A stretch of 64,000 nt of DNA from Anaspis maculata. Taxonomy: Eukaryota; Arthropoda; Insecta; Coleoptera; Scraptiidae. Positions 28,517 to 63,445 of the stretch are shown here, one piece after another. The notes below the pieces were generated by a model. The model saw only the letters and a program-made list of their open reading frames with translations. It did not search any database and was not told the DNA's origin. Location: contig OX421963.1 of NCBI GenBank assembly GCA_949128115.1, positions 58,585,306 to 58,649,305 on the forward strand, read 5' to 3'. How positions within the stretch are numbered: the first letter of the stretch is position 1; each line of letters begins with the position of its first letter. A program made the translations under genes and the position numbers.

Positions 28517-28520
28517 ATAT

Positions 28521-36392: not shown

Positions 36393-36659
36393 TCACTCGA
36401 AAGCTTCAACTTCTTCACCGTCTAATCCAATACACAGTCTTTGAGGCACGTCCATCAAACACCTCTTTCGCCTGCTCAAAACTGGAGGTTCAGGTTCCGG
36501 TTCATCTTCTTCTGGTTCATCAGAAGGTTCTTCCTCCTTATCTTCAGCTGCATCTTCGTAAGTCTCATTGGCACTCTCTTCATTTTCAGTATTTCCGTTA
36601 TTTTCTTCCGGAGGAAGATCTTCCTCGTATTCTTGCTCTTGGTCGGAGTCTGTGCTCAT
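36393..36659 (-). CDS. Small acidic protein with conserved 19-residue C-terminal tail (member 1)
   Basis: 88 residues from ATG at 36659. Residues 1-60 are strongly acidic and Pro-rich (runs such as EEPSDEPEEDEPEPEPP), surely disordered. Then RRKR (63-66), CLM, and the family block DVPQRLCIGLDGEEVEAFE (70-88), which ends at the stop. No signal peptide or domain is recognised. The frame stays open upstream to 36911, where a hydrophobic stretch (LISVRLLLCVLF) precedes this ATG, but that region has promoter-like composition and no clear start, so I chose the ATG that gives a hydrophilic protein like its relatives. The gene is divergent from member 2, with 356 bp between start codons. Function unknown. 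Confidence 0.75.
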   Translation of the reverse strand: MSTDSDQEQEYEEDLPPEENNGNTENEESANETYEDAAEDKEEEPSDEPEEDEPEPEPPVLSRRKRCLMDVPQRLCIGLDGEEVEAFE

Positions 36660-36947
36660 CTTTTGATGCCTACTTTCGCGTGAATACCAACACTCAAATA
36701 AGACACATAATAAAAGTCTAACCGAGATAAGATAAAAGTGTTTATCATTTTTAATAAACAGTCGTGCAGAGTGTGTCCGAAAAACCATTTCCGCTGAATA
36801 CACCCAATACATTAAAAATAGAACAAAGGAGAATTCTTGTTTCCATATTTCATAACTTAACGACCCGATAATATTTTGTGCATACATACTCGCAAAAATC
36901 GGAAATAGCACTACCTACATTGACATAGGAGAATTTATGCATTTGAA

Positions 36948-36985
36948 TATAAACAGGAGTCGGCTAATTTTCTAATATTCAGTTT
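36948..36985 (+). promoter_or_regulatory. Core promoter of member 2
   Basis: TATAAAC (36948-36954) is followed 33 bases later by the initiator TTCAGTTT (A at 36981). The predicted leader is 35 bases. It contains an out-of-frame ATG at 37000 that opens a 10-codon upstream frame ending at 37032, overlapping the main start at 37016. The upstream ATG has a poor context (T at -3); the main one has A at -3 and G at +4. Confidence 0.7.
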
Positions 36986-37015
36986 CGTCTTGAACTTGCA
37001 TGGTGGAACTTGAAC

Positions 37016-37198
37016 ATGGGGTCTGGATGTAGCAAGAAAGCGGACTCGCCTGAAGAAAATGCGGGCACTCCAGATGGTAAAGGTGACAATGGACAACAAG
37101 AATCGAAAGTGTTGAAACGTAAAAAAAGGCATCTGTATGACACACCAGATAGGAGAAATATCGGGCATGACGGCCAAGAAGTGGAAGAATTCACCTGA
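37016..37198 (+). CDS. Putatively myristoylated small protein with conserved C-terminal tail (member 2)
   Basis: 60 residues. It starts MGSGCSKK: Gly2, Ser6 and Lys7-8 fit the N-myristoyltransferase consensus, and Cys5 could be palmitoylated, so a membrane-anchored protein is likely. A hydrophilic linker is followed by KRKKR (34-38), HLY and the family block DTPDRRNIGHDGQEVEEFT (42-60) ending at the stop. Intronless. AATAAA at 37381 is a plausible poly(A) signal. The start is ATG 37016; an in-frame TTG two codons earlier is not a likely start. Binding partner and function are unknown. It is the only family member with a lipidation motif. Confidence 0.8.
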   Translation: MGSGCSKKADSPEENAGTPDGKGDNGQQESKVLKRKKRHLYDTPDRRNIGHDGQEVEEFT

Positions 37199-37386
37199 TC
37201 TGACCATTTAAGTGGAAATGCACGCACCGTCGTTAACATTCAGATCATCGAGTGCTAGGTTCGATTTCAAGGAGCGTGTGAACTTTGAGGTCGTCCACGG
37301 TATGAAATTGACAATTCAGACTATGGTGGTGTGTATATTGTGCATTTTCTATTTCATTAAATTATGCTATTTATAATTTGAATAAA

Positions 37387-38576
37387 CAATACAAATTCCT
37401 ACTTGTGAAAAATATCTACTACTGTTCTTAAATAAACAAAATGCCTTGCGTTGCCTCTCAATCATTGTGGCTGGTATGGAATGCTAACATCATTTTTGTA
37501 ATGAGCCACCATACATAAATTTAGAAGAGGTGTTGTTACATTTTCATTTTAAACTGTTTTGAAGAGAATCAAGACCTTCAAAATGACATGCAACTTGACC
37601 CCTATTCGCAACGCAACGCAGGCTTTGGAACTTTGGAAACCATTATGAAACACCAATGTAGAACATTCCTGTGTCTGCTTTTAATCTTCGAATAATTTGT
37701 CAGTAACCATCATTTAGAATGATGAAAAAATAAGGACTCTTAACTACCTACTTTCACTTCTTACAGGGTAGGTATCTATCTAACCTCCAGTTCCACCAAA
37801 CTTTTATGAACGAATTAACTCCATCACTTTCATAGTAACTAAGCAACTGGTAATGCCATTGGCTGTTGCAGAGCAACTATGAGCGTGATAAAGTTAATTC
37901 GCTCATGAAATTTTGGTGGCAGTGAGTAAAAAAACAGCAAAAGAAGTTCTGACGGAACAAATCATCTTGTTTTCTGCCCTACTTCGCTTTACCCTGACAA
38001 AATGTTCCACAGTGTTTTTGAAAAAATAATCCAAGTTTGTCAATCTTCGTGTAGGTACTTATAATTCCTGACCGCCCTTACCAATTTGGAGTCAACAAGT
38101 ATAAAAAGAAATCCCTTAGCCTGTTCTGATCAGTTTACTTGGACCTTTGAAAATAACGAACATAAACGACAATAAAACAGTTATCCTGCCATCCATATTT
38201 GCAACAAGTCCTTATTTTTTCAGAAATTCCTTCGCACTTCTGCAACACTACTCCACCATGCTATACCCGCAAATTGCGCTCAATTTGCGACACCCTGCAG
38301 ACCTGTAGTAATCTTAAAAAAACACATGCTGGGAATAAAACTAAAAAAATTACGTGGGATTTCATGAAATTCCCCAGAAACTCCTCGTACATCATTTTCA
38401 ATAATAGCTTTCTGGAGATCTTGGAAAAATAATCAAATATTTTCACATGCTCATGTAAAACCCGGAATATTAATAAAACAAACAAGAGCCCGGTTTGGGA
38501 TCCTCTTTAAATAGATGAAAATTGCGTTGTACGTTTTACTACTTCAAGTTAGTTTCGAGCTGCCAATGAATCAAAA
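37387..38576. other. Spacer between members 2 and 3, with an orphan promoter-like site
   Basis: TATAAAAAG at about 38100 is followed 31 bases later by ATCAGTTTACT, a textbook TATA-initiator pair, but no credible protein follows directly. It may drive a spliced leader of member 3, since an acceptor-like TTTTACTACTTCAAG lies at 38536-38550. A second TATA-like TTTAAATAG lies at 38506-38514. Two short inverted blocks around CGAATTAACT..CATCACTTTCAT (about 37811 and 37885) form a small hairpin. Confidence 0.4.
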
Positions 38577-38729
38577 ATGAGTCAGGGGGCCAAACAGTGC
38601 GAACAAGACCAAACCAAAGAAAACGAAAAAGAACCGGGAAGTCGCACGAGGGCGAAACGGGAGGCTTTGGACGTCCCCAGACGAACAAATGTTGGAATGG
38701 ATGGGAAACAAGCCAAGGAGTTCAAGTGA
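38577..38729 (+). CDS. 50-residue protein with conserved C-terminal tail (member 3)
   Basis: The shortest family member, begins MSQGAKQCEQDQTKENEKEP. A basic RTRAKR (23-28), EAL and the family block DVPRRTNVGMDGKQAKEFK (32-50) follow, ending at TGA. Intronless and hydrophilic. A 21-codon frame at 38515-38580 (MKIALYVLLLQVSFELP...) looks like a signal peptide and ends in a TGA that overlaps this ATG (ATGA), in a different frame. If transcription starts about 30 bases after the TATA-like site at 38506, that ATG is not in the mRNA. The arrangement is odd and is reported separately. Function unknown. Confidence 0.72.
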   Translation: MSQGAKQCEQDQTKENEKEPGSRTRAKREALDVPRRTNVGMDGKQAKEFK

Positions 38730-39152
38730 TTTTTTTATTTTTGTCAAAGGTAATCATTATTTAATCATTCAGTACTTTTATTCTTATCATTAACGGTGTT
38801 TAATGACAGTCATAATTCATGAGCACAATATTTGTCTAGAACCTTGGCACAGCCAAATATTTACTACGAATTCATAACCAATTGACAAAGTTATATCAAC
38901 GTGCGCATTAATTAGTCTAATTTAGCGTGATTCACACCTCATTCACACCAATTCAGAATGATGAAAAAATCTGTATTTTTCATGTTTATACCTATATAAT
39001 TGATTTATATTTTTTCAATTTTGAAAGAGCTGCATTTGGCCGATGTATCACATTTCAGTTTTAGACAGGAACAAAAACTATCAATTTTTATAGCTATTAG
39101 TCTGTTTACTTATGATGCGGTCTTGAATCTTGTGTTTATCTAAAATCCTGCC
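38730..39152. other. Spacer between members 3 and 4
   Basis: AT-rich, no gene or repeat recognised. Confidence 0.4.
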
Positions 39153-39192
39153 TATAAATAATAGAGCTGATGGTAGCGGAGGACTATTCAGT
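39153..39192 (+). promoter_or_regulatory. Core promoter of member 4
   Basis: TATAAATA (39153-39160) and an ATTCAGTC initiator (A at 39190) are 37 bases apart, slightly long. An ATG at 39170, in frame with the gene, lies between them and would be upstream of the mRNA start. The leader would then be very short before the ATG at 39197. Confidence 0.6.
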
Positions 39193-39196
39193 CATC

Positions 39197-39397
39197 ATGG
39201 CAGATCAACCTCAGAGCTCGAAACCATCATTACAGCACAATGACGAAGAAAAAGATGTGACTTCTAAAAGTATGACTGAAGTTGAGAAAAAAGAAAAATC
39301 ATCTGAAAAACCGATAATGAAGACGATGGCGCTGAACGACGTCCCCGATCGCAACGACATTGGCATGGACGGCAAGCAAGAAGAAGAATTCGAATAA
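39197..39397 (+). CDS. Small Lys/Glu-rich protein with conserved C-terminal tail (member 4)
   Basis: 66 residues from ATCATGG. The Ser/Lys/Glu-rich N-terminal region (VEKKEKSSEKPIMKTMALN) is followed by the family block DVPDRNDIGMDGKQEEEFE (48-66) up to TAA. It lacks the RxKR motif of members 1, 2, 3 and 5. AATAAA at 39468-39473 is a good poly(A) signal. An in-frame ATG nine codons upstream is judged to lie inside the promoter. Member 6 is its closest match in the tail (DGK.EEEF). Intronless; function unknown. Confidence 0.78.
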   Translation: MADQPQSSKPSLQHNDEEKDVTSKSMTEVEKKEKSSEKPIMKTMALNDVPDRNDIGMDGKQEEEFE

Positions 39398-39479
39398 GTT
39401 TGTAAGCTCGTTTGTGAGTGATGTTACCAGTTAAATGTTTCATGTTCATTACAATACTTGTAAAAGAAATAAACGACAT

Positions 39480-41373
39480 TTTGTAGGTACTTCAAGTACA
39501 TTGGACACTAATCACTAATGAGATTAAATACCTTGTGCAATACGATCTGACTCGTGGAATAATTAGGTCTTGAAAAAACCAACAACACGAAGAAAGTTAC
39601 TTTGTGTTCACCCAGATGGGATTGCGCTTAGAATTCTTATTTACTTACTTCTGTTATGTGCATATTAGTGTGAGTAAACGAAGAAAGTAAAAACGAATAC
39701 CTATACCCACACACACCAGATAGTACAGATACCTACTCTATGCTGGTGGTGTTACAAAATTTAATTGTTACTAATAACTCAGATCGAAATATAATAATTA
39801 CTTATTATAAAAGTAACAGAGCATGAACGGCTCTTGGCTCTTTTGAGTAAAGTACTTACCTACCTAACTATACCTCTTATGACATGTCATGATATCATTT
39901 GCAATTAAATCTTATAAGCAGCAGTGAAAGATAATTTTCTCGTGTTAAGTAAAAATAGGAGGTAAGACTAAGGATATAGGTGGGTATGTAATAAATTATT
40001 CAGAATTTAGATCGACAAATTTCTCGGGTTCACGGCAGAGTTAGCAGGAACAACTTCCATCTGAATAAATTGTTATGCACGCTTTATTGAATTTGAAAAT
40101 CGGTAGGTAATCTATACGCAATTAGCGAGATGTTAAATCGATTGGCAATAAAGTGCAATCGGTTGCGTAAGAGTTGTGATAATATAACGATTCTGCGATG
40201 GGAAAAACGGAAACGGAAACGTTCGGAAAAGTGGATGGAATAGAGATTTTTCGATTTACCTCCACAACGCTGTAAGATAAAATAATAATCATCATAATCC
40301 CAAGATTACCTGATTGTGTATGTCATAACAGTCATAACTGGTGCTAACAACTGAAGGAAGCCTTAACATCCGGCAATCGCGTAAGTTATTTACACAGCGA
40401 GTACCTGTAGGAATGCGTGCATAATGAACAAAGATAAAACGAGACAATTATTTGTTCTTAATTAAATTTCTCTACGTAATTTATTTTCCAACCAGGCTTA
40501 GATGTCAGGGTTTTGATAATTCAAATCTCACGAGTCTCAAGCAAACGCAATTATTCAACAGTAATATCACAAGTGCTTAGATTTCCACGATAATTTTGGC
40601 CTAGCGATCGCGAGTGCTGGTTGTAGCGACTATTCCACACAACATACTTCGGACCAATCAATACGTTCGAAAACCTTCGAGTTGAACCAATGAAATCAGT
40701 TTTATACTGATAAAACACGACCTTCGTACAGTTTTATACTGATAAAACTGTGCTTCCTTTTTATATCCTGACCGGGGTTCCGGTAACGAACTGAAGAATT
40801 TTTTTGACATTTCCCTTTTGATTTTAATTTTTTTGGTCATTTAGGTCTCAATTCCAACATATATCTGTCACTGACGAGAGCTAACAAGCTCGAAACAAAC
40901 GTTTGTATGCCAGTTATGGGGGAATTAACGGTTTTTTTTCGGTGAAATAGTCAATGCGAATTGACATTTCATCTTACCTTTTCTACCTTTATTCTTTCCA
41001 AAAATGAGTTTTGTTGTCCCAGTAAATTCATGTAATTTCTATTTGTTATAATTGCCGCATTATTATCATTATTTTTGCCACAACGGCACCGTACGTCACC
41101 GTAGGTAGGTTAGGCAGCCCAGGTTACCCTCCTGCATAGTTGACACATTGACAATTAATGACATCCGCAATCCGCGCGGGGCACAAAATCGCAGATTCAG
41201 CCACAAAAAGGACCAGTTCTGTAAGGCTCTGGTTATAGTTTGCGGCCAATGTGTTTTTTTTTTCAAAGGCAAAGCTTTGGAAGACGTTTTTACGTTGAAA
41301 AGCACAATAATAATTGAAATGTTAGCTGTTCGTTAGACTGTAAGTGCACTTGATTTCCAAAACAACTTAATTG
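39480..41373. other. Intergenic, no gene seen
   Basis: AT-rich sequence. A 20-base unit CAGTTTTATACTGATAAAAC is repeated at about 40697 and 40729. The frames at 40658-40840, 41096-41305 and 41148-41336 have no support. Confidence 0.4.
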
Positions 41374-41705
41374 AATAGGGTGATTGCATGTAGAGGGAGT
41401 TTCTGGCAAAATGTCAACCGTGTCATTGTCATCTGTCAAGTTTCATCCATGTCGGAGTCAGCGTCAACCGGACTTACTTCACTGAATACTGTCATGTTTA
41501 CGTTCTTACGTGTTTTGATCACATACCGTTTTGTTCGGCGTTTACGAAATTGATATTGTGATTTCTAATCATTTTAACAAAACAATGAATGCCTTACATC
41601 TGTTATGTGCCCCATTGCAATTCCATAACAAACGTCAAAACATAACACGATCCTTGCGCTGCCTGTCGGTGATCAGGTGAACGAATTTCATGCAATCACC
41701 CTATT
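41374..41705. mobile_element. 332-bp MITE
   Basis: It begins AATAGGGTGATTGCATG and ends CATGCAATCACCCTATT; the ends are exact complements. The interior has no coding content. Confidence 0.8.
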
Positions 41706-42683
41706 AGCATGACCGCATGACGGTGTCACAACGCCAAAAAACAATTCCTTATTTGGATATGGGGTGGATTTGGGATCGAAACGTTTTCATATTTTGATAA
41801 ATTTCAAAGTTCATAATTTTCAGATAATAAAGAGACCATTTCACACTCGGTGAATTCCTTGAAAACAAAGCTTTCGAGATAGTTCGAAAATTTTATTGAT
41901 AAAACTCATAGCTCTTGTGGTATTATAATATACGATAAATGCACGACTCCGTAAGAGGACAACCAGCCCAAGGGAAACGCTTGGCCAAAATTATCTGGAA
42001 AAATCTTGAGCACGAGTGATATTTTGATGATTATTGCAAAAAAGAAGTCCACAGTGACAGCTGTCAGATTTTGTTGTTTACATCAATTTTCTTCCGTTTC
42101 CATTGACAGTGTGATTTAGATAAGTGAATATTATCCTTGTAGGTCTAATAATTGAGGGCACTGTATGTAATAATCAAGAATATTTTTGATATCTCTCCCC
42201 CATGTGGGCACGTGTGATCTCACAGGAGTTACAGGTCAAAACAAAAATTACTGAACATACAAAATTCTCAATCTCTCGATAATTCCGCTAGTTTTTGGTT
42301 ATATCCGCTGTTGTTATCTTAGTTTTGAGTAATCACACAGGTAGATTTATCAAATAAAGTCGCACAAGATAAAGTCATCACTCATCGCACGAGTAACCAA
42401 CTTCATTTGGGTACCTATCGATTTATTTATATATTTATTAAAATAATATATCTACACTAATTCACGTAATATAAATATTGGAGCTAAGGTAATTGATAAT
42501 GAGCATGGGGAGATCCCTTAGCAGCTTGTTACACTAATGTTGATTGATGATTATTCAGTTCGTTAAGAATTGAGGATATCTCCTGATGCAGTTGGTAGAA
42601 AGTCACCTAAAATGTATAATTTTATTAGCGTTTACGAAATGAAACTGGTAAGTTGTGTGACAATACCAACTTGTCTTGCACTC
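41706..42683. other. No gene seen
   Basis: AT-rich intergenic sequence without recognised repeats or frames. Confidence 0.4.
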
Positions 42684-42742
42684 TTTATTTTTTTTTAAAT
42701 TATTTTGTTCAAAGTACTTGTAAGAAAATGCTTGCCTAGTGT

Positions 42743-42922
42743 TCAATCGAACTCATCTTCAGCGCTTCCGTTAATCCCAACGTTTCCTCTCTCGGGTGCA
42801 TCGCCGATTTCTCGCTTTTTTCTCGACTTGGTTTCTTTACTTGCTTGAGAATCCGGTGAAGACGTGCAGTCATCTTGACTTGTTTGACCATCAGTTTGAT
42901 CGTTCGAACAGTTATCGCTCAT
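42743..42922 (-). CDS. Small Ser/Asp/Gln-rich protein with conserved C-terminal tail (member 5)
   Basis: 59 residues: MSDNCSNDQTDGQTSQDDCT, more Ser/Asp/Gln, then RKKR (34-37), EIG and the family block DAPERGNVGINGSAEDEFD (41-59) to the stop. It carries Asn in place of Asp in the G-x-D-G step. The open frame extends to 43027, but a TATAAATT box (42994-43001, minus strand) and an ACCAGTC initiator 32 bases on (A at 42969) put the mRNA start downstream of that ATG, so MSDN is the start, with a leader of about 47 bases. AATAAA lies at 42684-42689. Intronless; function unknown. Confidence 0.78.
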   Translation of the reverse strand: MSDNCSNDQTDGQTSQDDCTSSPDSQASKETKSRKKREIGDAPERGNVGINGSAEDEFD

Positions 42923-42965
42923 TTTCACTTGCGGTATGAATGATGTAATGTTATGTACTTTTTTT

Positions 42966-43001
42966 GACTGGTGCTCGGTGTTCGAATAATCTGAATTTAT
43001 A
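42966..43001 (-). promoter_or_regulatory. Core promoter of member 5
   Basis: TATAAATT (42994-43001 read on the minus strand) with an ACCAGTC initiator 32 bases downstream. It decides the start codon of the gene at 42922. Confidence 0.65.
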
Positions 43002-43212
43002 TTGAATTTGAAGTGCGGTCTTTTCATACGAGAGATATGAAAGGTTCACTTTGTCTGATCTGATGCTTACTTTACGTACTTAAATATTTACTTTCGTTGG
43101 GTTTTCATACATTCTGAAAAGCACTTCCTAGAAGGAGCAAGATAAGCTGACTAACATGCCTAGTCTGTATCTCGTAAACGCGCATGTAATGTGCATGGTA
43201 TTTGTCTGTATA

Positions 43213-43788
43213 CAGGGTGTCAAATTTAAAACTTACAATTGCCTGTAACCTGTAAGTCTGAAACAAAAGCAGATATCGGAAGTCGCCTAAAACCGTTTGG
43301 ACATAATGGAGGATGAGCCATAATAGTGAAGTCAGTGACTCACCCCCATTCACTGTATGAACCCCAGCCCCTCCACATTTTTTTCTAAATAGCAACTTTC
43401 CACTCGTGTTAATATATTATTGGGAAGCCTTTGAAAAATGCTTTCCAGTCACGTGTGTGCGTAGCCTGGTCGCCAAATTTGAGGCAACGGAATCTGTTAA
43501 TAATAAAGTAACTATTAATAATATAAAGACTACTCAAACAAAATATGAAATAATTGGTACCACTGGAAAGCATTTCCAAGGGCTTTCGGCTGATGAATCA
43601 CAAGTGGAGGGTTGCCATAAAAAAAAAATAGTGGAGGGGGCTGGGGCTCAGACTGAGTGGGGGTGTGCCACTGACTTCACTATTATGGGTCCTCCTCAAT
43701 TTTGTCTACAGAGTTTTGGGCGATTTTCGACATTATCTGCTTTTGTTTCAGACTTAGAGACAACTTAAGTTTTGGATTTGACACCCTG
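43213..43788. mobile_element. Palindromic MITE, CAGGGTGTC ends, TA target
   Basis: Begins CAGGGTGTCAAATTTAAAAC and ends GGATTTGACACCCTG, with TA on both sides (43211-43212, 43789-43790). Arms of about 0.25 kb match with divergence (CAGATATCGGAAGTCGCC against its complement near 43720). The open frames at 43105-43395 and 43406-43768 are this element. Confidence 0.85.
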
Positions 43789-43982
43789 TATATGAATTCT
43801 CCATACCTCCCTTTTTGGCTATCTGCGTTAACATGAACGTTACGGAATAACCCTAGTGCTCACCAAAAATGAATATTTCACATGACAGCACGATGATTTG
43901 TCTTTGATCTTTAATTTGAATTATGATCTTTGTGAAGCTTGAGTGTCACGGTACTACTATTTTCGTTATGTGTATATATATA

Positions 43983-44727
43983 CAGGCTGTCCCGAAAATA
44001 CACCGACAACGTTCCAGGGCAGCTTCCTCTCATCAAAACAAGAAAAAAAGTTCCCATAAATATGGGTCCGGAAAAGCTTCCTAAGGGAGCTACATGCCCC
44101 CAAAGGTGGGGCCCTGAAGATGGTGCGTTTATTCAATATTTCCGAAACCCTTCAAGAGAAATCGATCAAACTTAACACATTTAATAACCTTCTTATGCCC
44201 AACAAAATTTAAATGCCAAACAAAAATGAAGTTGCTTTGAAATAGTTTTTCTTTCGTCTTGAATATTGTAATTGAAAAATCAGCATTTCTGACCACGTTT
44301 TCATACATTCAAACTCAAATATCTCAAAAACGGTGCAACTATCGAGGTTGAACAAAGAGACCTTTTTTTGGAAGAAAACTCCAACATTCCATAATTTCAT
44401 CTTAAATTTGGAAAAAATTCACATTCAAAAAAGTTAGGGCTTTTTTACACCCACACCTTACCTGACCCACCCCTGGTAAATTATTTCTGAACTAATCTTG
44501 CCTCATTTTGCTGAACATAAGAGGTTAGTGGATGTGTCAAGTTTGATTGATTTCCCTAAAACGGTTTCGGAGTTATTGGATAAAAACCATCTTCAGGGTC
44601 CCACCTTTAGGGGCCTGTAGCTCCCTTAGGAAGCATTTCCGGACCCATGTTTATGGGAACTTTTTTTCTTGTTTTGATGAGAGGAAGCTGCCCCAGAACG
44701 TTGTCGGTATATTTTCGGGACACCCTG
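43983..44727. mobile_element. Palindromic MITE, CAGGCTGTCCCGAAAATA ends, TA target
   Basis: The ends CAGGCTGTCCCGAAAATA and the inverted TATTTTCGGGACACCCTG sit between TA dinucleotides. Inner blocks such as GGAAAAGCTTCCTAAGGGAG (44073) pair with the other arm near 44612. The open frames at 43939-44175 and 44547-44762 are the two arms. Confidence 0.88.
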
Positions 44728-45645
44728 TATATATATATTTTTATACTAGAAATCTAGTATAAAAGGGATACTAGGTTGTTAAGGAATTTCTGAATTTGTA
44801 GTTTCTGGTCATATATTTCTAGCATCAAAATAGTAAGAAAATAGTGTCGTGATACTCAGGTTTAAGACTAGATGGTTTATTAGGAATTCGGGCTTTCTCG
44901 GCAATTCTTTATTGAACGGTAGGTTCGAAAACGAGTTTGAAAACAATGAAAAACCTACCTAAAGTGGGACAAAATTGAAGTGGATCACCCCGAAATTTGG
45001 CTTTGGTTGAAATGAGGATATTTCGAGTCAAAATTTCCCGATTTCCGGAGTTTTTGTGGTGTTCGATACAGTAACGTTTTGACTATAAGATACTATCTTA
45101 GAGTTGGATCACCCACCGATTGCTGACTTTATATACGATGTGAAAAAAATGCAAAAAAGACCTGACTTTAGCAAGGTGCCGTTTTAAGAAAACAAGTCGC
45201 AGAATTTTTTCAATCACATGTTTGAAAAGTGTGCTTGAATCAATAACTTGAAAAAGGTTTTGAGCCCTGGATCGTATTTTGTTTTTGCAATTTTTTGTAG
45301 AAGGTGATGTCTTGAAACATTGAAAAAAATCGGATCAAAATCATATGCCATGAGTTGGAGGAATCTTAATAGTGGAAGAGGATGATTGGGAAGAAAAATG
45401 GGTCCAAATGTCGGTGTCTTTGCATATCGGTTACTCTGGATTCTGGACTTCATTTGGGAGTTGGTGGAACATGGGCCTTATTATTGGACCCATTGTGCCC
45501 CTCTCTCAGACCAGCCGGACTCACCGAGCCACAAACATCAGTTACTCATTTAACCCTCTAACGGCGGAATAATTATGAGTTTCTCAAAATAAAAAAACTG
45601 ATGATATTTCATAAGTTTCTGTATCCTCTGGCTCAATAATGATAT
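44728..45645. other. No gene; holds dispersed repeat at 45055-45225
   Basis: The segment 45055-45225 is the diverged second copy of the repeat at 9500-9665. The open frames at 45214-45453 and 45372-45572 have no support. Confidence 0.45.
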
Positions 45646-46075
45646 TGTTACGGGCGGTGATTCTGCATAACACGCGATCTTTCTAGACTTTTCCCATTAG
45701 GTCGCAGTGTGCAAATGCGGAGTTCTGGTGCGTCCCAGAGCGCGCGTGTAGGCTTTTGCCCGTGGAACCGAATGGGGAGATTTCAACGGTCGACCAGAAA
45801 ACATCAGCCGAATTGGCGGAGGAATTTGCTGGAGGATTCATGGAAGGTTTGAGAACACTATTCGAAGGCATATTTGTGTATAAGGACCGTCCTCAGCCAA
45901 CGCAGCTGTTATGAATGCGAAGTGGTAGCGAACGGATTAAAAGCGAGGAGTGATCACAGCGATATTACCAAGCAATAATTGTTGGCGTGTATTTATTGTA
46001 GTACGCAGTAATAAACAGTGTGTGTTTTAAAACGATCGCCAATTATCAAAGAACCCGTACAAGAAATACGTAACA
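45646..46075 (+). mobile_element. Solo LTR of a gypsy-type relative
   Basis: 430 bp from TGTTACGGGCGGTGATTCTG to AGAAATACGTAACA. ATAT flanks both ends (45642-45645 and 46076-46079), the same 4-bp target duplication as the element at 22.1-28.5 kb. Blocks CGATCTTTCTAGA, TAGGTCGCAGTGT, TCTGGTGCGTCCCAGAGCG and AATAAACAGTGTGTGTTTTA line up with that element's LTR in coding orientation. No internal region remains, so it arose by LTR-LTR recombination. Confidence 0.9.
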
Positions 46076-46676
46076 ATATTTTACAACAATGACTTTCGGT
46101 TTTTGCTAAAATTAGTATGTTATTATACGGGTTTCAAAAAAACGAAGTTTGTCACACGACTCTTTTTGGGGAACAACGAACACAGTGAGGGTCAAAAAAA
46201 AGGAGTGTGACTGAACGTCTTATTGAACGAGTGTGATATAAGTACCTAACTAGTGGGGACACTTACTAGGTGAATGAACCTTACAAATGGTGATGAAAGC
46301 ATGGAACTCGGTACACATACTTAGAATGAGCCCCTCTTTCAGATAAGAGGTGGAGCCACGCAGAATTTTCACCGGAAGGGGACTCGGGGGGCTCCTGAAA
46401 GTTGAAGGTGCTAGGACTCCCACCAAACCGCTCATAAGTTCGTTTTATCAAATAAAAAGGAAATTTATGTATATACCGTAAACATTGACGGCGTTTATCG
46501 CCTTGTCCCGGGATTTTCCATCATGAAAAAAAAGTTCTTCGGCAGATCACAAAAATTGGTTTTATTTTATTTTCACCTACAAAGGATTAATAAGGAGATG
46601 TACAGCAGGTTGATTCCCACAATAATTCATATCCTCTGAATTCGTTTGTAGAATCGAAATTTTGATGGTGGTATAT

Positions 46677-47125
46677 ATTTTTTCCTCTGTTTGTGGCCTT
46701 GACTGCTTATGGTCTTTAGCCAGTTTTCGTTGTTGATCTCCGTGAATTACACGCTTCACTTATAGAAAAATACCGGACTCTATCGCAAATTCAAAAAGTC
46801 CCCTGAGAACTTCACCTCCACCTGCTGCCAACAATGACATTACCGAAGTCGGAAATTCCACGCCCAGATCCGACAGAGCTAAAAGAAGATTTCCTACAGA
46901 AACAGAACGTTCTCGACATCCCAGAAAAACGTGCTCCAAATCTCCCAATTCCCCACAAGTGCAAAGTGGTGAATCACTTACGCCAATTCTATATAAATGA
47001 GCAGAATAAGCTCCGTGACCGAGTCTTAGACGAACTATGAAACCAGTAAAAGCTCTTTCGCCAGGAAAGCTCCCGAACCATGGTTTGTTTCGAAAATCTG
47101 TCTGAATTTTACAGTACCAAGAGCC
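46677..47125 (-). mobile_element. 5'-truncated LINE, 3' end of ORF2
   Basis: On the minus strand the frame encodes about 120 residues from WYCKIQTDFRNKPWFGSF through FIVRLRLGHGAYSAHLYRIG to LPLCTCG-type sequence (SPLCTCGELGDLEHVFLGC, a C-x-C-x7-H-x4-C motif). This is the usual tail of I/Jockey-group ORF2 proteins after the endonuclease and RT, typically followed by a short 3' region. The low-coordinate edge is T-rich (poly-A tail). TTTGATGG(TGG)TATAT flanks both sides (46661-46676 and 47126-47138). The rest of the LINE is absent. Confidence 0.82.
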
Positions 47126-48233: not shown

Positions 48234-48250
48234 CTATGTAGGTGAAAATG

Positions 48251-53322: not shown

Positions 53323-53358
53323 TATATATTCCAATTCTTCCTCAGGACGACTCAGTCT
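53323..53358 (+). promoter_or_regulatory. Core promoter of third cuticle gene
   Basis: TATATAT (53323-53329) and a CTCAGTCT initiator (A at 53354) are 31 bases apart. The leader is 36 bases to the ATG at 53390. Confidence 0.75.
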
Positions 53359-53389
53359 GTCAGTTCAATCCTTTCGTCCATCCTCAGCC

Positions 53390-56300
53390 ATGCAGTTCTA
53401 CATTGTAAGTGTGTGACAGTGTGACCGATTTTCAGGAAGTGGAAAACTCTCGGATTATACCTTTGGGCAAAAATTGAATTTAACACACGTATACATTGAT
53501 ATGGGTCGTATGATTGAAAGAATTATCTGCTTCTACTTCACCTTTTACTGAAAGTTACTAGGAAAAATTTGCTTAGTAACTCACTGTAACAGGTGAAGTA
53601 AAAACACATGCTTCTTTTAATCATATGACCCATTGGAAGTGAAACTAAAGAACATTTCTGTGCAGGTCTGTTCCGCTGCAATCTTTGTGGTGGTTGGGGC
53701 CACTGGAGGCGGTGGATATGGTCAGTATGAAGACGTTGGCTACTACGGGGGCGGAGGTTATGGGGGTGGTGAATACGAAAGTCTAGGTGGCGGCTATGAA
53801 GCCAACGAAATTGGACACGAGGGTGGATCGGAGGAAGAAGCATCACACGAACATGAACATGGACACCAGGAAGAATATGTCGACTATCACGTAAGTAGTA
53901 CCTAGTTCAAAATAATAATATTTCCAGCTGAAGCAAACATGACAAAAATAGTGAAACCTTCATGCGAGCATAAGAAGTATATTAAACTTGACATTAGAAG
54001 TGCGGAGCCCAACTTCTCGAGCTTTACAGCAGTAGCAGCTTGATCGGTTTTACGCAAGAGTTAACTTGTCACGACCATAAAATATCACAATTGTCCAATT
54101 ACTGGCAGCAGGCAATGTTAATAGGAAGTTGCATAGGATCACCTGAGTTATTATCAGACAAGGGAGTTATTCATTAGACAATACTTCGTATGCCCTCCTT
54201 TCAACAGTTCACTACTGATCTAGCCAAAAGCTGACACAATCAATTCTAAGCTTTCGCCCAAATCAAAACATATAATTCGAAATCAAATATTTATGATGGA
54301 AAAAAACGTCGACAGATAATAATTAAGTATGTCGAATCAGCTTCTATAATGATATCATTTAAATTCACTAACGTAAGTAAATACATGACTCTGGTATTTT
54401 TAATTTATGAGGATCAGATTTTTTTGACATTTCCATTATCTTTTCGTTGAATGAATATCTTTTGATTGAATATATCAAGAAAGGATCCATTCTGCGCTCG
54501 TAGTGGAGTGGTTCTTGATAGAATAAAAGTGCTTGTTTCTCCACGAAGGTTTATTTTTATGTAATGTTCCTCGAGTTTCGGCCCTCTTGATACGTTCGGG
54601 CAATTTCAAAAATTCTGAAAGTAAATATACATAGTGAATGATAATTGTGAAGAGAACCACTGAAATTATTATTGAGAACATTGTCTAAGGGTAGGGTCTT
54701 CGAATTTAGCCTATATGTAATAGGAAAAATAACAAAAATATTGTCGAAATGAGGAAGTTCATTCAAAAGAACACCTTGATTAGATTTATGTTTTTTCAAA
54801 ATTTAAAAAAAATTAAAAAGGGCCGGAACTTGAGTAATATTACTTAAAAATGAACCTCCGTGAAGAGACAATGACTTTATTATATTAACGGTTGAGTATA
54901 AGCTGTGGGATAAAAATGTACAAACACAAACTGATTCATTTCATTTTCTGATGATTGATCTTTATCTCACGTCTAGGCAGGCACATATATTTTTATTACT
55001 AGGTACAGAGTGTCTGTCTTCATAATGTTCAGTACCTATTGGAAAAATCTTGTAAATGGTAATGACATAAAAAGTTGAGATAATGGTACCGATCTAAAAG
55101 ATTTCAACATATTTCTAGTTGGACTAGAATACGAGTATAATAGAAATTTTCACTTTTCATGACGTTAGGTCATAATGAGTATGAGTGATGTCAAAAATTG
55201 ACAAAACCTGCCCAATTATCGTTATTTAAATTTCTCTTTTTGCAAAAAATTCATTAAGCATTGATCTAGATTTTTTCTGCGTGCGTTTTTAAATTTCGTG
55301 GTGTCGGGATTGAGATTGTAGATTATCCTTCTCTATAACTAAACTGCTCAACGATTGAAGTAAGCCACTCGAAAATCTCGCTTTACTTCAAATGACACTA
55401 GCTGTATTTCTTTTAAACAAAATCCCAGATAATCTCACCTCAGTTGGAGAAAGAAAAAGCGAGAATGGCTTGAGAGGGAGAGAGACACAACTAGCAATTG
55501 GAGTGAGAATTCTTAGTTCAGATGATAGAAGGAACGCAGCTAATATCTCAGAAAAAATCAACCTACTTTAGAAAAGGCAGTATATTGTCGTTCTCAATAT
55601 TTTGGCTGAAAGACACGTCCGTTGTCTAGAAGATTGATAGATGCAATCATGATATACAGGGTGACAACCAAAGATGTTTTCTGGTGGCACTTTTGAATAG
55701 CCTCCATCAATATCTCGAAACGATAATTGTGAAATTTTGACCGTATTTTTGTTTTACAAGAAAAGTTTTGATATTTTTTCTGGAGATGTGCATTCTTCGA
55801 AGCCTGCACCGATATTTGAGGTAAGTTCACGGTCAAAATGTTTTCGATGAGAAAATCTGACCACAACGACCCTTGGGGGGGGCTACTCCTTCTCAACTCC
55901 ACGAACCTTCTCAAGGATGAAAGCAGCTGTAGCATGTTGCAGTAGTAATGCACAGCTTTATCAATGCAGAATAAATAAAACTGTATTTAAACTCGCATGA
56001 TAATCCCATACGAGTTACGAAATACGTTGCACAGATACCGTATCAGCCCCGCATATTGCTATTTTCCACAAAGTCCCTAAGTTTGAAAGTTCCGAAGCAA
56101 TATCTCAAGGACGAGGTACCTATACAGTAAAAATTGTATTTTGCCTTGAATCTGATACAATAGTGCACTTTCGAGCATCCGAACCAACGGTTTTACATGT
56201 TTTGATTGTTTGAAATCAACAAACCGACTAGCTGACAAAACCATTAGAAGGCATTAGAACTGCAGCATCCTAGAGTTCTTTACAATTCTGACGAAAGTTC

Positions 56301-59300
56301 GAAGGGTTGAAAAGGAGTAACGCCTCCAAGGGCTGTTCTGGTCAGATTTTCTCATAGGAAATACTTTGACTTTAAATTATGCATTTCGTTCCAATTTCAG
56401 TGGAGAAGCAAGAGACTCATCGGCATCAAAAAATGCATAGGTATTTCCAGAAAAAAAAAACTCTCATAAAACAAGGTACGGTCAAAATTCCAAAACCGTT
56501 ATACTAATGATTATTGATATCCAACAGTGCAATCAGAAAAAGCTGATTTTTTCCACGCAAGGGACAGGATGCTAAAAATGGATAATTTCGACAATCCTTT
56601 AGTTATCACCCTGTATATCATGGATGCAGCTATGGGGTTTGCAGTCAAAAGTAACGCCTATCCAGCAATAGTGTCAGTCATCTTTTCCTGAGATTTTTAT
56701 TCGAAATGAAGCAAGATTTTCGAGTGACTCACTTCAATCGTTGAGCAGTTTAAACGGGGATTCTATAGTCGCTTTCAGGAGCTTCATTACACACCTAACG
56801 GTGTCTCAAAATTCACGCCTTCGGAGTCTAAGGCAGCTTACGGAAGTGTTTATTGCTTGAAAATGCAAGAAAAATATTGAAAAAAATTGGTCTTTTATTG
56901 TGAAGGCATGGACATGGAGAATCAAAGGAAGGTCCTCCGACCCCTTATTCTAGTTTAGTTAATGAAAATATGCAAGTGACCTGTTGATATCAGAATTATG
57001 GATAAAAAATATCCACTAAAAACTGAGTGGGTACCAGATCCCTATTTACTATGAAGGATGAGTCTTGAAATAGAAAAAATCAATTTCTGTAAACAAAATT
57101 CATTCGAAAAAAATTTTTGGTTCACAATTATGTGATCTTCTACTTGACATCAATTCAAGGACCAACCAAGGACGGAGGTTTCCGTTAGTATTTTCCAAGA
57201 TTTTGGTATTCAGTACTTGCAGGAAATAGTGTTATACAATTGAGACGTTTTTTCTTTTTTCCCATCACGTAGTATCACCTTTCCTTTAATCAAAGAAGCG
57301 ACAATTCCTAAGTCGTCGTAACCGCTCCAACTGCTCACCAAACGAGATGTTTATTCAAAAAAGGCATTGCACGTCCTCAACTAGAGCCATCAGCATGCTT
57401 ATAGATGCGACCGGAAGTGAAAGTATCTGCCATTATTTTCATAAATGTTTTAATTTCTAGGTTTTGTTTACCTGATACAGATCGAACAGATTTAAGGTGC
57501 CTAAACGCATTGCTATGTAAATAGACCCTCCATTAGAAAGTCATTAACCTAAAGCTAGTAATTAAACAATTATTTAGAAGCAAGAAACCGGCAATTTTTC
57601 AGTTTCTGCTCTTTTTCTCAATCGGTAGCGTGAGCGTGGTAAACTACCGGCGAGCGTCTCGTCCATGGACATCCAGATCGCGGTGACAACAAAGATTATA
57701 ATAATCCTATTGTTTACAATTCTGGTGCCCATATTTCGTAACCCCGTTTCACTTTCTACGAGAATAATGAGACATGTGAGCATCTATGCAGAGGGAGCTT
57801 GAATATGTATGTGCCGGAAGCCGGGAAGACCGTGCCGGCATTTTACGATACCAGAGCGCGAGCGATTTTTCCAAGAGACTGCTCCGCCGTTGAAAGTTCC
57901 TCAGTTCTTCTGATAAATATTTATGGGAAACATTACTGGAATTGGTATGCTATCGGTCGCGTGGAAAAAAGTGAAAATAATATCGGCATTTTCGCGCTTG
58001 CTGATGTTCTTAGGACCAACAGATATCTACTTGAAGCCTACACGATAGTACATTGTGTATTCCTTTGGTGCAAGAAAATATATGTTATAAATACATATGT
58101 TATATGTTATATCTGTTACTTATGCATGTTTCGAGAAATTTTGAAAATGTTGACGTGACAGAAACAATCCAAGCTGTTGTGTGTGCAGAATTCATAGAAG
58201 AAATTGTCAGTATATCTATACCATACCCTCCTGGCTAATTGCTGCCATGAAAAAAATAATGATAAATAAAATGAAACGTAATGAAATACATGAGAGCAGA
58301 GATTTATAAGTTGAGAGAACACATACTTACAAAATCATAATGTCCGGTAGTTGGTTTTATTGGATTTTATTGATGATACATTGATACAACAATTACAACA
58401 TGAAATATTCATCAGCCTGACTCAACTTACAGGTCCAACTTTCTTGCCTCAAAATTATTTCCTGAAAACGCGTTGCTGAACATCGCTTATTCTCCCAGAG
58501 CCAAAAGAAGTTTCGAGCTACCCCTAATTAATGCAATGGTACGATTTATCCTTGAAAGGTGTTGACAAGATTTCAGATGGTCGGTCTACAGCAGACCGAG
58601 TCAAAAGTCTCTTAAGCAAGATTTGAAACGCAATAAACAATCCTTCCATCCAAGTACCTACTTATCCCTTGACAGCTTCTCTGTAATAGTGCTAATTATA
58701 GTCAGGGGGGGCCAGGATCAAAAAAGGCTTTGCCGTGTGCGACTTTGTGAAAAGAATACAGCGATACTTTAATCGATTCCTGGACCATCACGGATGATAG
58801 AGAATTATAGTGGAACATTGACATCTACGGCAAACAAAAATGGTGGAGGCGCCAATATGGGGCTCCGTCTGGTAATTAGAAATTGGCTGTTCCTCGTCTG
58901 TTTTTTAAACAGATTTGAGGACACTTGAACGTCATTTGGGGGGGAAGGAAAGAGAATTTTTGAGTTTTCCACCCTGGAAAAACTGCGAATTTCTAACTTT
59001 TTATTCCTTTAACAAATTTTCACCATTATTTTTTAACAAGAGTTACCCAACTAGTTCTGAACATTTTATATCAATTCATTCCCAATTTTCCGACAGTTAA
59101 AGTCCGACGACAGTTCTCAGTTGAAGATGCAAAACCGGCGTGGCGTATCGAGACCGGGCTCAAATGTCGGAGCTCAAAAATATGAAGTTGTAGTCGGCAG
59201 TTGCGATTTTATACCATTTCCCGTTCGGCTGCTGTGAGTTTTTTTTACTTAGTATTAGGAATGCAAACTTTTTTCAGTATTGCAATCAAGTTCCAAATTT

Positions 59301-61758
59301 CCACCCGAAAAGACGCTGTCTAGAACAAAAGTTTCCAGACTTTCCTGAATACTAATCGTGGAAGGAGTATTGTGGTGCCACAACAAATTTTTTGAAGGAG
59401 TTGTTGGTGAGATTATATATATTTTCTTGCTTCTAGTAGTGAAGTATTTACATTAACTGTTAGCATGTTCCTGAATAAAATCCAAATCAATCAGATGGGA
59501 AAGTTCAATACTGCAATCCAAGATATCATCGGATTGCAAAACCAAGCATTCAAGCAAACATATCTATTAAAGATACGACAATATTGCAAATTTCATCAAA
59601 ATCGGCCAGTTATTACAAGAATGCAATCTGGCGAGCCAAGACAGCGTTACATGCAAGTGTAAAAAAAACCACTGTCCACTCTTTTGAGTAAAATTTGTTC
59701 ACAGACGGGCAGACAGACACACAGATGTTATCATAGAACTACAATGGGAGCCATGGGCGGTTTTGCTCCCGCTAGAGAGCGCTGGGATGGGTGGGGATCT
59801 CTAGAAATTTAATCTTTGATTAACTTCCATATAAATACAGGTGGTCCAGTTTTTGATACAAGATTTTGAGAGATGATAGAGAATCAAAAATGAAAGAGAC
59901 TTCCACAAAAAAGAATATTTCAGAAGTACATAATAACGCAGATATAGTCCTTTAAAGTTGGAAATAAAAAATCATTTTTTTTGGCATAACTTTTGAACCC
60001 TTCAACCAATGTTGTTCAAATTGGAACCAAAGTTCACTTAGGCGAGTCTCTATCGAACGGTGATAACGCGTTTTATTAAAAATATCCAAGAGCGTAGATA
60101 ATAGTTGGCACCCCTTTTTTGCCCCCTAATTTTTCTACCCCCTTGAAAATTTTCCACAATTGTTCATATACTTTCAAGTTCTATGTTCAATTAAAAAAAA
60201 AAAATTACTGTTGAAAAATTTTCATTAGAGGCTTCGTTTTCGAGATACTTGAGTTTAAAATTTCAGAAAACATCTCGGAAACACCACTTTCAAACGCTTA
60301 AAAATTAAAATCCGAGAAAACTCATGATTTATCACTGAAATGAGTTCTCTACGTGTTTTAAGTTGATAACCAAAGTTATCCATCCTGTTAATGGTTTTAT
60401 CTGTTGGATGTTTTCTTGCTGGAAAATCAAATAAATAAAATAAAATAAAATAAATAAATAAACCATCACGTTTGCTGATGAACAAGAAGTTTTCAGGGAA
60501 CAAAACATTTAGGGTCTTAAAAGTGAGGGTTTCGAGATGTTTTTCAAAGTTTCAAACCCAGATATCTCGAAAACGAAGCCTCTATTCAAAATTCTGCAAG
60601 AGTAACTATTCCTTTAAAATTGAATATAGAACTAAAAAATATCAAGTTTTGAAAAATTTTCAAGGGGGTAAAAAAAATAGGGGACAAAAAGAGAGGTGCC
60701 CCTTATCATCTACACCCCTGGATAATTCTGATGAAACGCGTTATTATCGTTCGATAGAGACTCGCTCAAGTGAACGCAAAAAAAAACTGATTTCTTATTT
60801 CCAATTTTGAAGGGATGTAGGCTCTTCTGAATTTTTTTTTCGGGAAAGTGGTCTTCAATTTTGATTCTCTATCATCTCTCAAAATTATGTATCGAAAACT
60901 GGACCACCAAGGCTGGATAGAAAGTTTCGTCGATAAAGTCAAGTTTCATGATTAGTTCAACTTTTGAAATGACACTGACATTGAATTAGGTTAGGATACG
61001 CTGACAGGAATGAGAAGAGCTTGACGCCTAACGTGGTCCCCAAGGTAACAGTGGTCCCCAGAAGGTCCCCAGCTCATGTTGCGCCCTCTGCAATTCGCTC
61101 AGACAGACAAACCGGCCTCAATATAGCACTTTTTTCGAAAATATGTTAAAAAATAAAAAAAAAGTGACCACAAACAGTCTTCGCCACTACGTCTCGCGAG
61201 GCTCAAGAAATTTTTTTTCACTACTAGCCGTGAAGTAGGTACATCATTATTAACCTGCTCCTGAATTAGGATGCCGATTTTCTAGTAGTAAAAAAAATAC
61301 TATATAAACCACGGTCGAGAAGATCATTATAGCTTCAGCGCCTTATATCCCTCAGCTACGCTTCGGGATCTAAACTGGCGCTTCAGTTATAATAATACTT
61401 TCTCAACCTTGGTATATAATATACTATTTTACCACGACTGAGAAAACCATTATCGCTTCAGTGTTTTAGATCCCTCAGCTCTTTCTTAACCTTGGTATAT
61501 GTATAATGTATACTATTTCAAGTGAATACACTAACAATATAAAAATTCCAGGCACACCCCAAGTACCATTACGACTATGCCGTCCACGATCTCCACACCC
61601 ACGACATCAAGAGCCAGTGGGAAACCCGTGACGGCGACAAGGTCAAAGGAGAGTACACCCTGGTCGAACCAGACGGTTCCAAGAGGATCGTTCAGTACAC
61701 GGCCGACAAACATAGCGGTTTCAACGCCGTAGTGAAGAACATCAAAGCCGGTTACTAG
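53390..61758 (+). CDS. RR-2 cuticle protein with 7.7-kb second intron
   Basis: Exons 53390-53404 (MQFYI), 53666-53890 and 61552-61758, all phase 0, encode 148 residues. The signal peptide is [20 protein letters not shown], split after residue 5 like the other two cuticle genes. Exon 2 continues with Gly/Tyr-rich repeats ([18 protein letters not shown]) and an acidic, His-rich stretch. Exon 3 is a full RR-2 chitin-binding domain: [52 protein letters not shown]. It keeps the DG-turn and GFNAVV that the other two have lost. Introns have GTAAGT donors and TGCAG / TTCCAG acceptors. Intron 2 (53891-61551) holds hairpin MITEs and an antisense small-ORF candidate. The joining of exon 3 to exon 2 rests on phase, strand and the shared domain border (AHPxYHYDY). 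Confidence 0.88.
55657..56613. mobile_element. 957-bp palindromic MITE in cuticle gene intron
   Basis: Starts CAGGGTGACAACCAAAG and ends CTTTAGTTATCACCCTG, flanked by TA on both sides. Arms show patches of pairing (GACCGTATTTTTGTTTTACA with its complement near 56468). It lies on the transcribed strand of the third cuticle gene and accounts for the 119-residue minus frame at 55594-55953. Confidence 0.78.
57574..57768 (-). CDS. Candidate secreted peptide precursor, antisense in cuticle intron
   Basis: On the minus strand, after an acceptor-like TTATTCTCGTAG, an ATG (57732) opens [29 protein letters not shown], a good signal-peptide shape. It is followed by [12 protein letters not shown] and a final [11 protein letters not shown] before TAA. 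RKR is a prohormone convertase-type cleavage site and the last five residues PVSCF resemble the PISCF end of type C allatostatins. The second cysteine needed for their disulfide ring is missing. An earlier in-frame ATG exists at 57783. A GCCG/GTAGTT donor just after the signal peptide leaves open that it is a signal-peptide exon spliced elsewhere. No promoter was identified. Confidence 0.3.
   Translation of the reverse strand: MILVESETGLRNMGTRIVNNRIIIIFVVTAIWMSMDETLAGSLPRSRYRLRKRAETEKLPVSCF
58726..58880 (+). repeat. Dispersed repeat shared with 21.7 kb
   Basis: GCCGTGTGCGACTTTGTGAA..TTTAATCGATTCCTGGACCA and AATGGTGGAGGCGCCAATAT match 21712-21855 in the same orientation. Unit about 150 bp, class unknown. 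Confidence 0.6.
59840..60908. mobile_element. 1.07-kb palindromic MITE in cuticle gene intron
   Basis: Begins GGTGGTCCAGTTTTTGATAC and ends AACTGGACCACC. Arms (59840-60260 and 60500-60908) match with divergence, for example GATGATAGAGAATCAAAA near 59873 with its complement near 60858. The centre holds an (AAATA)n stretch at 60427-60460. Open frames inside are arm read-throughs. Confidence 0.82.
61290..61512. repeat. Small palindromic unit, 1.6 tandem copies, just before cuticle exon 3
   Basis: ACTATATAAACCACGGTCGA..ATTATAGCTTCAGCGC is paired with its complement near 61385-61430. Part of the unit starts again at about 61428 (ACTATTTTACCACGACTGAG). It lies about 40 bases upstream of the splice acceptor of exon 3. 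Confidence 0.65.
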
Positions 61759-63173
61759 TAGAAACCTATCAAAGAACTCCCGAAAGCCTGCGAAAGTATT
61801 TATTATTTATTTTTAAGTACCTACCTACCCTAGTTGTTGTACTTATACAAATGTTTATTTTTATTGATTGTTATCAATTATTTCATACATTACTGCCACT
61901 ACATTCACTACATTTTATTGCCATATACACCGCGTGCTTGTTAGATACTCCCACCTGTGTTCATGGTATTCCATCATCATCCCCTGTCATATTATTTTTA
62001 TGATAATGTGCTTGCAATATTTATAAGTATATTTTTTGTAAATATGTAGTTTTGTACTGCTTGAAAATATAAAAAAAAGTTAAGAAGTACCTAGGTAGTC
62101 TGACTTCAATTTTTTACGAGGTGAGTTTATTTAAATTCCATGTTTTTGTGGACATGATCAATCTTGTTAAGCCTAGGTAATAATAATAACACATGATAGT
62201 GAAGTTCCTGGTGTAGTATGCTCTGATTGGTTCGCGCCAGTTCCCGTTGCACCATCGTAGGAGTTAATTCAATAATAATTGCTTATATGACGAATGCTCC
62301 GAGTTACTTCCTATCTTTGAACGTAGGCAATCAATTTTAATTTAGGCCTTTCGGATTAATGAAGCATATAATGTATGTGCATGGAATATATGCATACGCA
62401 TATTTTGATATTTGTAAGTAATGACTAGCAACTGGAGGAGTTTAAAGACCAGAAGGAACATTTAGCATGGAATTTGCATTATATCACCAGATGCGGATTT
62501 CATTGCCTATTCTCAGGTCTTACGGCTCGTACTCGTGCAGAAATCAATCAAAAAAGTGTTTTTTCTTTTTTTTTTGCCGTTCTCACCAAAAAGACATCTA
62601 ATGACGTGTTAAATCTTTCGCTAATAATTCGTGTCAAGTACAGACAAAGCACAAGTAACAATGTGCCTTAGACGATGTGTGCTTCAAAATTGAAAAATTA
62701 TGGTTTATTCATAGTCACAAATTTACAAAAACCAATTTTGAATCTGAATTTTGAAACACATTTACCAGATTATGCATGGTTAAGATCATAGATCACTTCA
62801 ATTCACCTCTAAAATGACCCGAAAACAAGTAGCCGGTAGACAATTATCTTGCTCTTGATAACATGACTCAACATGACTTTAAGGGTTCCAACACTGACAA
62901 TAATAGCCCTGTATAATATGTGATGGTCAATCTTCAATAAAAACACTTTGGAAAATTCAACATTATGTAGGATGTATTGGGTGGCTGCTTCCATGTACCT
63001 GCTACTGAAGTGAGTGCAAGACTTTTGTAGTAATCACACGCGGTCCAAGAAAAACTGGTTCTATTTGTAAGACACTTCTAGTTGAAGGAGTCTTCATTCA
63101 GAGTTGAGTTTGTACAGTCATCAAAAATAACTTGAAAATTACATGTCTCAACTCTTGCATCTGAATGCGACTT
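61759..63173. other. 3' flank of cuticle gene and intergenic
   Basis: The 3' untranslated region probably extends to about 62070. No other gene or clear repeat is recognised; the frames at 62474-62671 and 62809-62994 lack support. Confidence 0.4.
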
Positions 63174-63374
63174 TCACGAAAATTCCTCTTCTTTCTTCCC
63201 ATCCATTCCAATATTGGGCCTTGATGGCACATCTTGAAATACACTGGGTGTTGCAGAGGCTAGATTTTCGTGGTCTCCGAGTTTCGCTTTACAACTGTGC
63301 ATATCGTGTTGTTCTGGAGTTTCTCGTTCGCAAGCTTCGTTCTTCTTCTGGTCTTTTTTACTTTCGTCGCACAT
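63174..63374 (-). CDS. Small Lys/Glu/Cys protein with conserved C-terminal tail (member 6)
   Basis: 66 residues: MCDESKKDQKKNEACERETP, a charged middle with three cysteines, then SATPSVFQ and the family block DVPSRPNIGMDGKKEEEFS (48-66) to TGA. No RxKR motif. The frame extends seven codons further to a GTG, which I reject as a start. On the minus strand TATAAAA (63439-63445) lies about 70 bases before the ATG, giving a leader of about 40 bases. It is 20 kb from member 5 with a cuticle gene between, so the family is dispersed or extends beyond this window. Intronless; function unknown. Confidence 0.78.
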   Translation of the reverse strand: MCDESKKDQKKNEACERETPEQHDMHSCKAKLGDHENLASATPSVFQDVPSRPNIGMDGKKEEEFS

Positions 63375-63438: not shown

Positions 63439-63445
63439 TTTTATA
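63439..63445 (-). promoter_or_regulatory. TATA box of member 6
   Basis: TATAAAA on the minus strand, correctly placed for a start near 63413. No clear TCAGT initiator is seen, unlike its relatives. Confidence 0.5.

Follow-up and report, generated by a model that had tools for sequence, protein, structure and literature searches.

Six small open reading frames (ORFs), numbered here g1 to g6, were examined in a 64-kb stretch of Anaspis maculata DNA; the whole of this stretch is called the window below. Very probably the six make up a genuine family of small proteins in this beetle, and they are held together by a C-terminal block of 19 residues that runs to the stop codon. Our preferred reading, which we put at about even chances, is that they are small disordered intracellular proteins that dock one shared partner through this block.

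Six ORFs end in a common 19-residue block

A preliminary description of this DNA had listed six ORFs, and translation confirmed that each of them runs uninterrupted from ATG to stop. On the minus strand these are g1 at 36393..36659 (88 residues; tail at 36396-36452), g5 at 42743..42922 (59 residues; tail at 42746-42802), and g6 at 63174..63374 (66 residues; tail at 63177-63233). The plus strand carries g2 at 37016..37198 (60 residues; tail at 37139-37195), g3 at 38577..38729 (50 residues; tail at 38670-38726), and g4 at 39197..39397 (66 residues; tail at 39338-39394). All six close with the pattern D-x-P-x-R-x-x-[IV]-G-x-[DN]-G-x4-[EA]-F-x followed directly by the stop, and from the D to the last residue there are 19 residues in 6/6, exactly as had been claimed for both the pattern and the distance. 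Six positions of the block (D, P, R, G, G, and F) are the same in every member. The residue before the invariant F is E in five members and A in one. The position after that F varies, the chains ending, from g1 to g6, in E, T, K, E, D, and S, respectively.

The window was scanned for the block in all six frames with a gap-free, position-specific profile. The six tails scored 70.2, 68.3, 65.2, 62.8, 57.8, and 57.3 (g5 being the lowest), and the next-best place in the window scored 19.7; the maxima from five order-2 Markov shuffles, used as background, were 22.8, 18.3, 15.8, 18.7, and 23.5. No seventh copy of the block was present at that score level in any frame of the 64-kb window. A candidate near 39711, suggested by a 21-base DNA repeat, was ruled out by the same scan.

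The claim that constraint is concentrated at the C terminus was borne out by pairwise comparison. The tails were similar in all 15 pairs, with a mean identity of 52% (range, 32 to 74%) and not one pair matched by any of 300 shuffles, while the N-terminal parts, aligned with the last 27 residues excluded, gave no significant pair among the 15 (lowest p, 0.137). Dissimilar N termini joined to one common C terminus would also be expected if the genes arose from the terminal coding portion of a bigger beetle protein with this C terminus. The block would then have retained its ancestral binding function, and the short products would compete with their parent. However, the block has no other copy in the 64-kb window, and we regard such a descent as unlikely.

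Codon positions and gene signals

Pairs of tails differed on average by 0.36 at the first codon position, 0.26 at the second, and 0.66 at the third. Values of dN for the tail ranged from 0.24 to 0.61, and a dS by the NG86 method was obtained for a single pair of the 15 (1.44), silent change in the other 14 being too large to correct. The protein sequence of the tail has been kept while the silent sites have been largely randomized.

A TATAAA element was found approximately 25 to 110 bases upstream of the ATG in 4/6 genes versus 93 of 2,200 control ATGs from the same window (binomial P = 4e-5, a value that is optimistic because the test was chosen after the sequences had been viewed). On the plus strand, the element begins 68 bases 5' of the ATG in g2 (36948..36953), with an initiator-like TCAGTT whose A lies 33 bases on, and 44 bases 5' of the ATG in g4 (TATAAA(TA), 39153..39158), with TCAGTC at -9 to -4 and its A 37 bases on. 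On the minus strand, it begins 79 bases 5' of the ATG in g5 (42996..43001), with CCAGTC and its A 32 bases on, and 71 bases 5' of the ATG in g6 (63440..63445). A weak TATA-like TTTAAA(TA) starts 71 bases 5' of the g3 ATG (38506..38511, plus strand), and neither TATAAA nor the weaker TTTAAA was found upstream of the ATG of g1. All six genes have A at -3, compared to 34% of control ATGs. Downstream, AATAAA or ATTAAA occurs within 300 bases past the stop in 4/6, being absent in g3 and g6. The genes had been called intronless. Of this claim, the continuity of the ORFs stands as observed, and the absence of introns is what we infer from it together with the TATAAA and AATAAA/ATTAAA signals.

Two further promoter measures were set aside. 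A TATA plus initiator pair score of ≥12 was reached by 5/6 genes versus 295 of 2,196 control ATGs, but the score took unexpected pairs in g1 and g6, and the simpler TATAAA count was therefore preferred. Words common to the upstream regions of the genes were also commoner there than in controls, but the upstream DNA of g1 and g2 is partly one and the same, and the control set differed in composition.

The genes g1 and g2 are divergent, and the spacer between their ATGs (36660..37015, 356 bp) is possibly a shared promoter. The start of g1 is less sure than the others, since its reading frame is still open 5' of the ATG as far as 36914 (36660-36914, minus strand), with a hydrophobic stretch within this extension. 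A longer g1 product or another start is possible.

Age of the copies

In a comparison of the DNA flanking the copies (400 bases on each side), the best flank-to-flank match had E = 0.28 or worse, overlapping stretches of neighboring genes aside, and the idea of transposon cargo was rejected on this lack of shared flanking DNA. Saturated silent change in the tail together with the absence of shared flanks argues for old duplications, and the copies look like old duplicates whose N termini have drifted rather than a recent burst or the cargo of a mobile element. The "rapid birth" proposed in the preliminary description finds no support in the uncorrectable silent change or the unmatched flanks.

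The view that the ORFs are not genes at all, and are instead chance ORFs or copies of mobile elements, might draw on the retroelement remains in the window and on an inverted-repeat element near g5. Against it stand the tail scores, the codon-position pattern, the promoter signals, and the lack of common flanks beyond the overlapping stretches, and it is almost certainly wrong.

Variable N-terminal parts and the R-x-K-R patch

The N-terminal parts measured 31 to 69 residues. They had been described as unalignable, charged, and 30 to 65 residues long, of which the first two properties stood and the length required correction. The charged fraction of any member was equaled by 0 to 2 of 129 control ORFs and the disorder-promoting fraction by 0 to 4 of the 129; in g1 the N terminus is very acidic. 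No hydrophobic stretch was found in any of the six called proteins, the highest 15-residue Kyte-Doolittle mean ranging from -1.36 to 0.64. The protein g2 begins with MGSGCSKK (37016-37039, plus strand), and none of the five other members begins likewise. This start resembles the consensus for N-myristoylation and palmitoylation.

Immediately ahead of the block, R, K, and R occupy residues -26, -24, and -23 from the C terminus in four members (g1, g2, g3, and g5) and not in g4 or g6. The same four-of-six count was obtained for a furin-type R-x-[KR]-R site. The usual single-part nuclear signal pattern was missing in g3 and situated elsewhere in g4. The fixed place of R-x-K-R in four members is what would be seen if the proteins were precursors of a 22-residue peptide freed by furin-type cleavage at this patch, and the hydrophobic stretch in the open frame upstream of the g1 ATG also fits such a precursor. 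However, the patch is missing in 2/6, the six called proteins lack a hydrophobic leader, and inspection by eye showed none in the open frames that precede the start codons of g2 to g6. We judge a peptide precursor very improbable.

Predicted structure and the free carboxyl end

The protein g4 was the one member modeled at full length with AlphaFold. In this model, the block was the best part, with a pLDDT of 88 for residues 51 to 60 and 81 for residues 61 to 66, compared to 55 to 66 for the other ten-residue blocks; the pTM was 0.22. The sole strand or bridge residues were block positions 8 and 14, which flank G-x-[DN]-G. In a model of the g5 tail, bridge residues again fell at block positions 8 and 14, with moderate confidence (75 for residues 21 to 30 and 69 for residues 31 to 34; pTM, 0.18). 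Both models were built on the same six sequences and are not independent. Positions 8 and 14 may pair with each other. A Foldseek search with the g4 model returned no match.

The preliminary description had taken the fixed distance to the stop as a sign that a free carboxyl end is needed. Inheritance without insertion or deletion is enough to keep the distance from block to stop constant, and the last residue itself is not conserved, so the fixed distance is no proof that the free carboxyl end matters. The invariant F beside the last residue keeps the idea alive. A pseudosubstrate role had been suggested as well, and no finding here was in its favor. In its full form, the proposal would make these proteins undescribed beetle inhibitors or adaptors with interchangeable N termini, whose hairpin-like 19-residue tail binds one partner only with a free carboxyl end, and this combination appears distinctly unlikely.

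Comparison with known motifs and systems

The C-terminal patterns for PDZ, HbYX, EEVD, PTS1, CaaX, and WRPW were found in 0/6 proteins, and a relaxed HbYX pattern permitting Phe was found in one. These counts bear on the reading of the block as a localization or turnover signal, i.e., a C-terminal degron or targeting tag, with the N terminus as cargo or dispensable. A conserved extreme C terminus behind an unalignable N terminus fits a tag well, but 19 residues with six invariant positions is long for such tags, and the PTS1, EEVD, and PDZ patterns were found in none of the six. We consider a tag unlikely.

The next-to-last F prompted a comparison with proteasome-docking tails. According to PMC8907193, HbYX/Y-Phi tails likewise place an aromatic residue adjoining the C terminus. 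The present proteins do not fit, however: F replaces Y, the preceding residue is the E or A noted above, and no member has F or Y at its last position.

The APC/C D-box of the cyclin type has the form R-x-x-L-x-x-[LIVM]. The R-x-x-hydrophobic-G spacing of the block is reminiscent of cyclin B, but I or V replaces the L and D or N replaces the second hydrophobic residue, and the D-box pattern was found in 0/6. A KEN triplet was present in g3 only. The tankyrase-binding pattern R-x-x-[PGAC]-x-x-G occurred in g2 only, starting from the R after the invariant R; separately, the Pfam model Tankyrase_bdg_C matched g1 below its threshold (E = 0.089; 13.6 bits versus a cutoff of 27). The CRIB pattern I-S-x-P...F-x-H-x-x-H-[VI]-G and the 12-residue EF-hand calcium loop were found in 0/6, with no Pfam match to either family. 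One LIR pattern was seen, in g6, ahead of the invariant part. On such pattern tests, the EF-hand loop, BH3, CRIB, D-box, tankyrase, PDZ, HbYX, RVxF, and PP2A-B56 candidates were dropped.

Two gene groups, the Bearded family of Drosophila and the E(spl) genes of Drosophila and other insects, offer a likeness at the level of arrangement. Bearded (Brd) proteins carry an N-terminal amphipathic helix. No N-terminal helix was predicted in the g4 model, in a part with a pLDDT of 55 to 66. The Brd genes are clustered and encode proteins with similar C-terminal ends, according to passages in PMC1310631, but the present N termini are charged and disorder-like and the ending is another one. The same passages describe the bHLH-WRPW genes of the E(spl) complex as clustered and intronless in Drosophila, with a WRPW end that recruits Groucho (PMC1310631). 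The likeness here is one of logic only, i.e., clustered genes with a stereotyped C-terminal motif for a shared partner. E(spl) proteins contain a bHLH and an Orange domain and close with only four residues, WRPW, whereas the present proteins have a 19-residue end of another sequence and no such domain; no bHLH Pfam match was obtained among the six proteins at E ≤ 1. The E(spl) cluster is the nearest analogue in logic, with no sign of kinship.

Searches for relatives

No member matched a Pfam or NCBIfam model above the curated cutoff. Sub-threshold Pfam matches numbered two for g1 (the best being an EspF repeat; E = 0.0082; 17 bits versus 20.2), one for g3, and one for g5, and two sub-threshold NCBIfam matches were obtained for g1. 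By sequence, the PDB gave no match with the full alignment or with g4; the one match of the tail profile (E = 1.4 over nine residues) was taken as chance. When 5.8 billion proteins were searched by profile with all six members together, 62 candidates with common words were retrieved, none at E ≤ 10, and g4 alone gave no candidate with three words in common. This collection includes ladybird and other beetle proteins, but with its size and the word filter a match of 19 residues would easily escape notice, and the result is weak evidence of absence. The searches considered only proteins of 0.55 to 1.75 times the query length, a range that puts a larger parent protein outside their reach.

Pattern searches of viral and prokaryote contigs matched 15, 0, 237, and 181 stretches, among which no relative was confirmed, as expected for a beetle gene. 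The tail letters and near variants gave no match in the text of open-licence literature, and among the titles and opening abstract lines listed from open-licence papers on such families, none dealt with this 19-residue-tail family. The claim that no known family carries the tail signature thus agrees with the absence of matches in Pfam, NCBIfam, the PDB, and the protein collection; the check proposed with it, a search that might place the block in a characterized family, matched no such family in the collections searched. As far as these searches reach, the family is undescribed. Intronless genes of 50 to 88 codons are easily overlooked by annotation, and searches with whole proteins will hardly ever reveal a family in which only a short C-terminal tail is conserved. 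Lineage-restricted families of small genes of this sort are common in insects, and the surprise is therefore moderate.

A proposed docking model for the family

Under the docking reading, each gene would yield a small, largely disordered intracellular protein, there being no hydrophobic stretch that could serve as a signal peptide or membrane anchor. The C-terminal block would dock onto one common partner, perhaps by way of a short turn or hairpin formed around G-x-[DN]-G, and the variable charged N terminus would act as a tuneable tail. In the four members that have it, the R-x-K-R patch just ahead of the block may help direct the protein to the nucleus or let it touch an acidic surface. Different expression programs could then act on one partner through the paralogs, which would either compete for it or link it to other proteins. 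Counted in favor of docking are the tail scores, the codon-position differences, the TATAAA and -3 A counts, the charged and disorder-like N termini, the low hydropathy, and the placing of the best-modeled part and the bridge residues in the block. Counted against docking are the low pTM and common input of the two models, the moderate confidence of the block in the g5 model, the empty Foldseek result for g4, the absence of R-x-K-R in 2/6, the nuclear signal pattern that is missing in g3 and lies elsewhere in g4, the absence of a TATA element and the open upstream frame with its hydrophobic stretch in g1, and the absence of AATAAA/ATTAAA in g3 and g6. If the tail is a docking motif, it would be a ready-made peptide probe for the partner in beetles.

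Genomic surroundings

Genes g1 to g5 are flanked by two cuticle-protein genes, and g6 lies just past the second. The first is an ACP-22-like cuticle protein gene on the plus strand with exons at 16384-16785 and 20978-21223, the latter carrying Chitin_bind_4. This second exon showed 88 to 91% identity over 85 to 90% of its length to a hypothetical protein of Henosepilachna and to proteins of Coccinella and Harmonia named adult-specific cuticular protein ACP-22-like; the three other organism-named matches were to beetles as well. These similarities put the window in Coleoptera and were read as pointing to a beetle apparently close to the ladybirds. The open stretch at 16384-16785 matched the preceding part of a Zophobas protein (36 residues; 64%). 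The other is probably a second cuticle-protein gene, also on the plus strand, composed of a glycine-rich exon candidate at 53621-53902, which had no Pfam match, and a stretch at 61402-61998 with a Chitin_bind_4 exon, the two being paired by eye.

Retroelement remains were found at 22878-24541 on the minus strand. One frame there encodes the zinc-binding and core domains of an integrase, and an open stretch that overlaps it carries integrase C-terminal domains. Two plus-strand open stretches, at 22302-22703 (without a Pfam match) and 28201-28545, appeared very similar by eye and represent a dispersed repeat. A MITE-like element of 584 bases lies upstream of g5 at 43209-43792, at a distance of 287 bases from the ATG; its 27-base terminal inverted repeats are 93% complementary and start with TATACAGGGTGTC.
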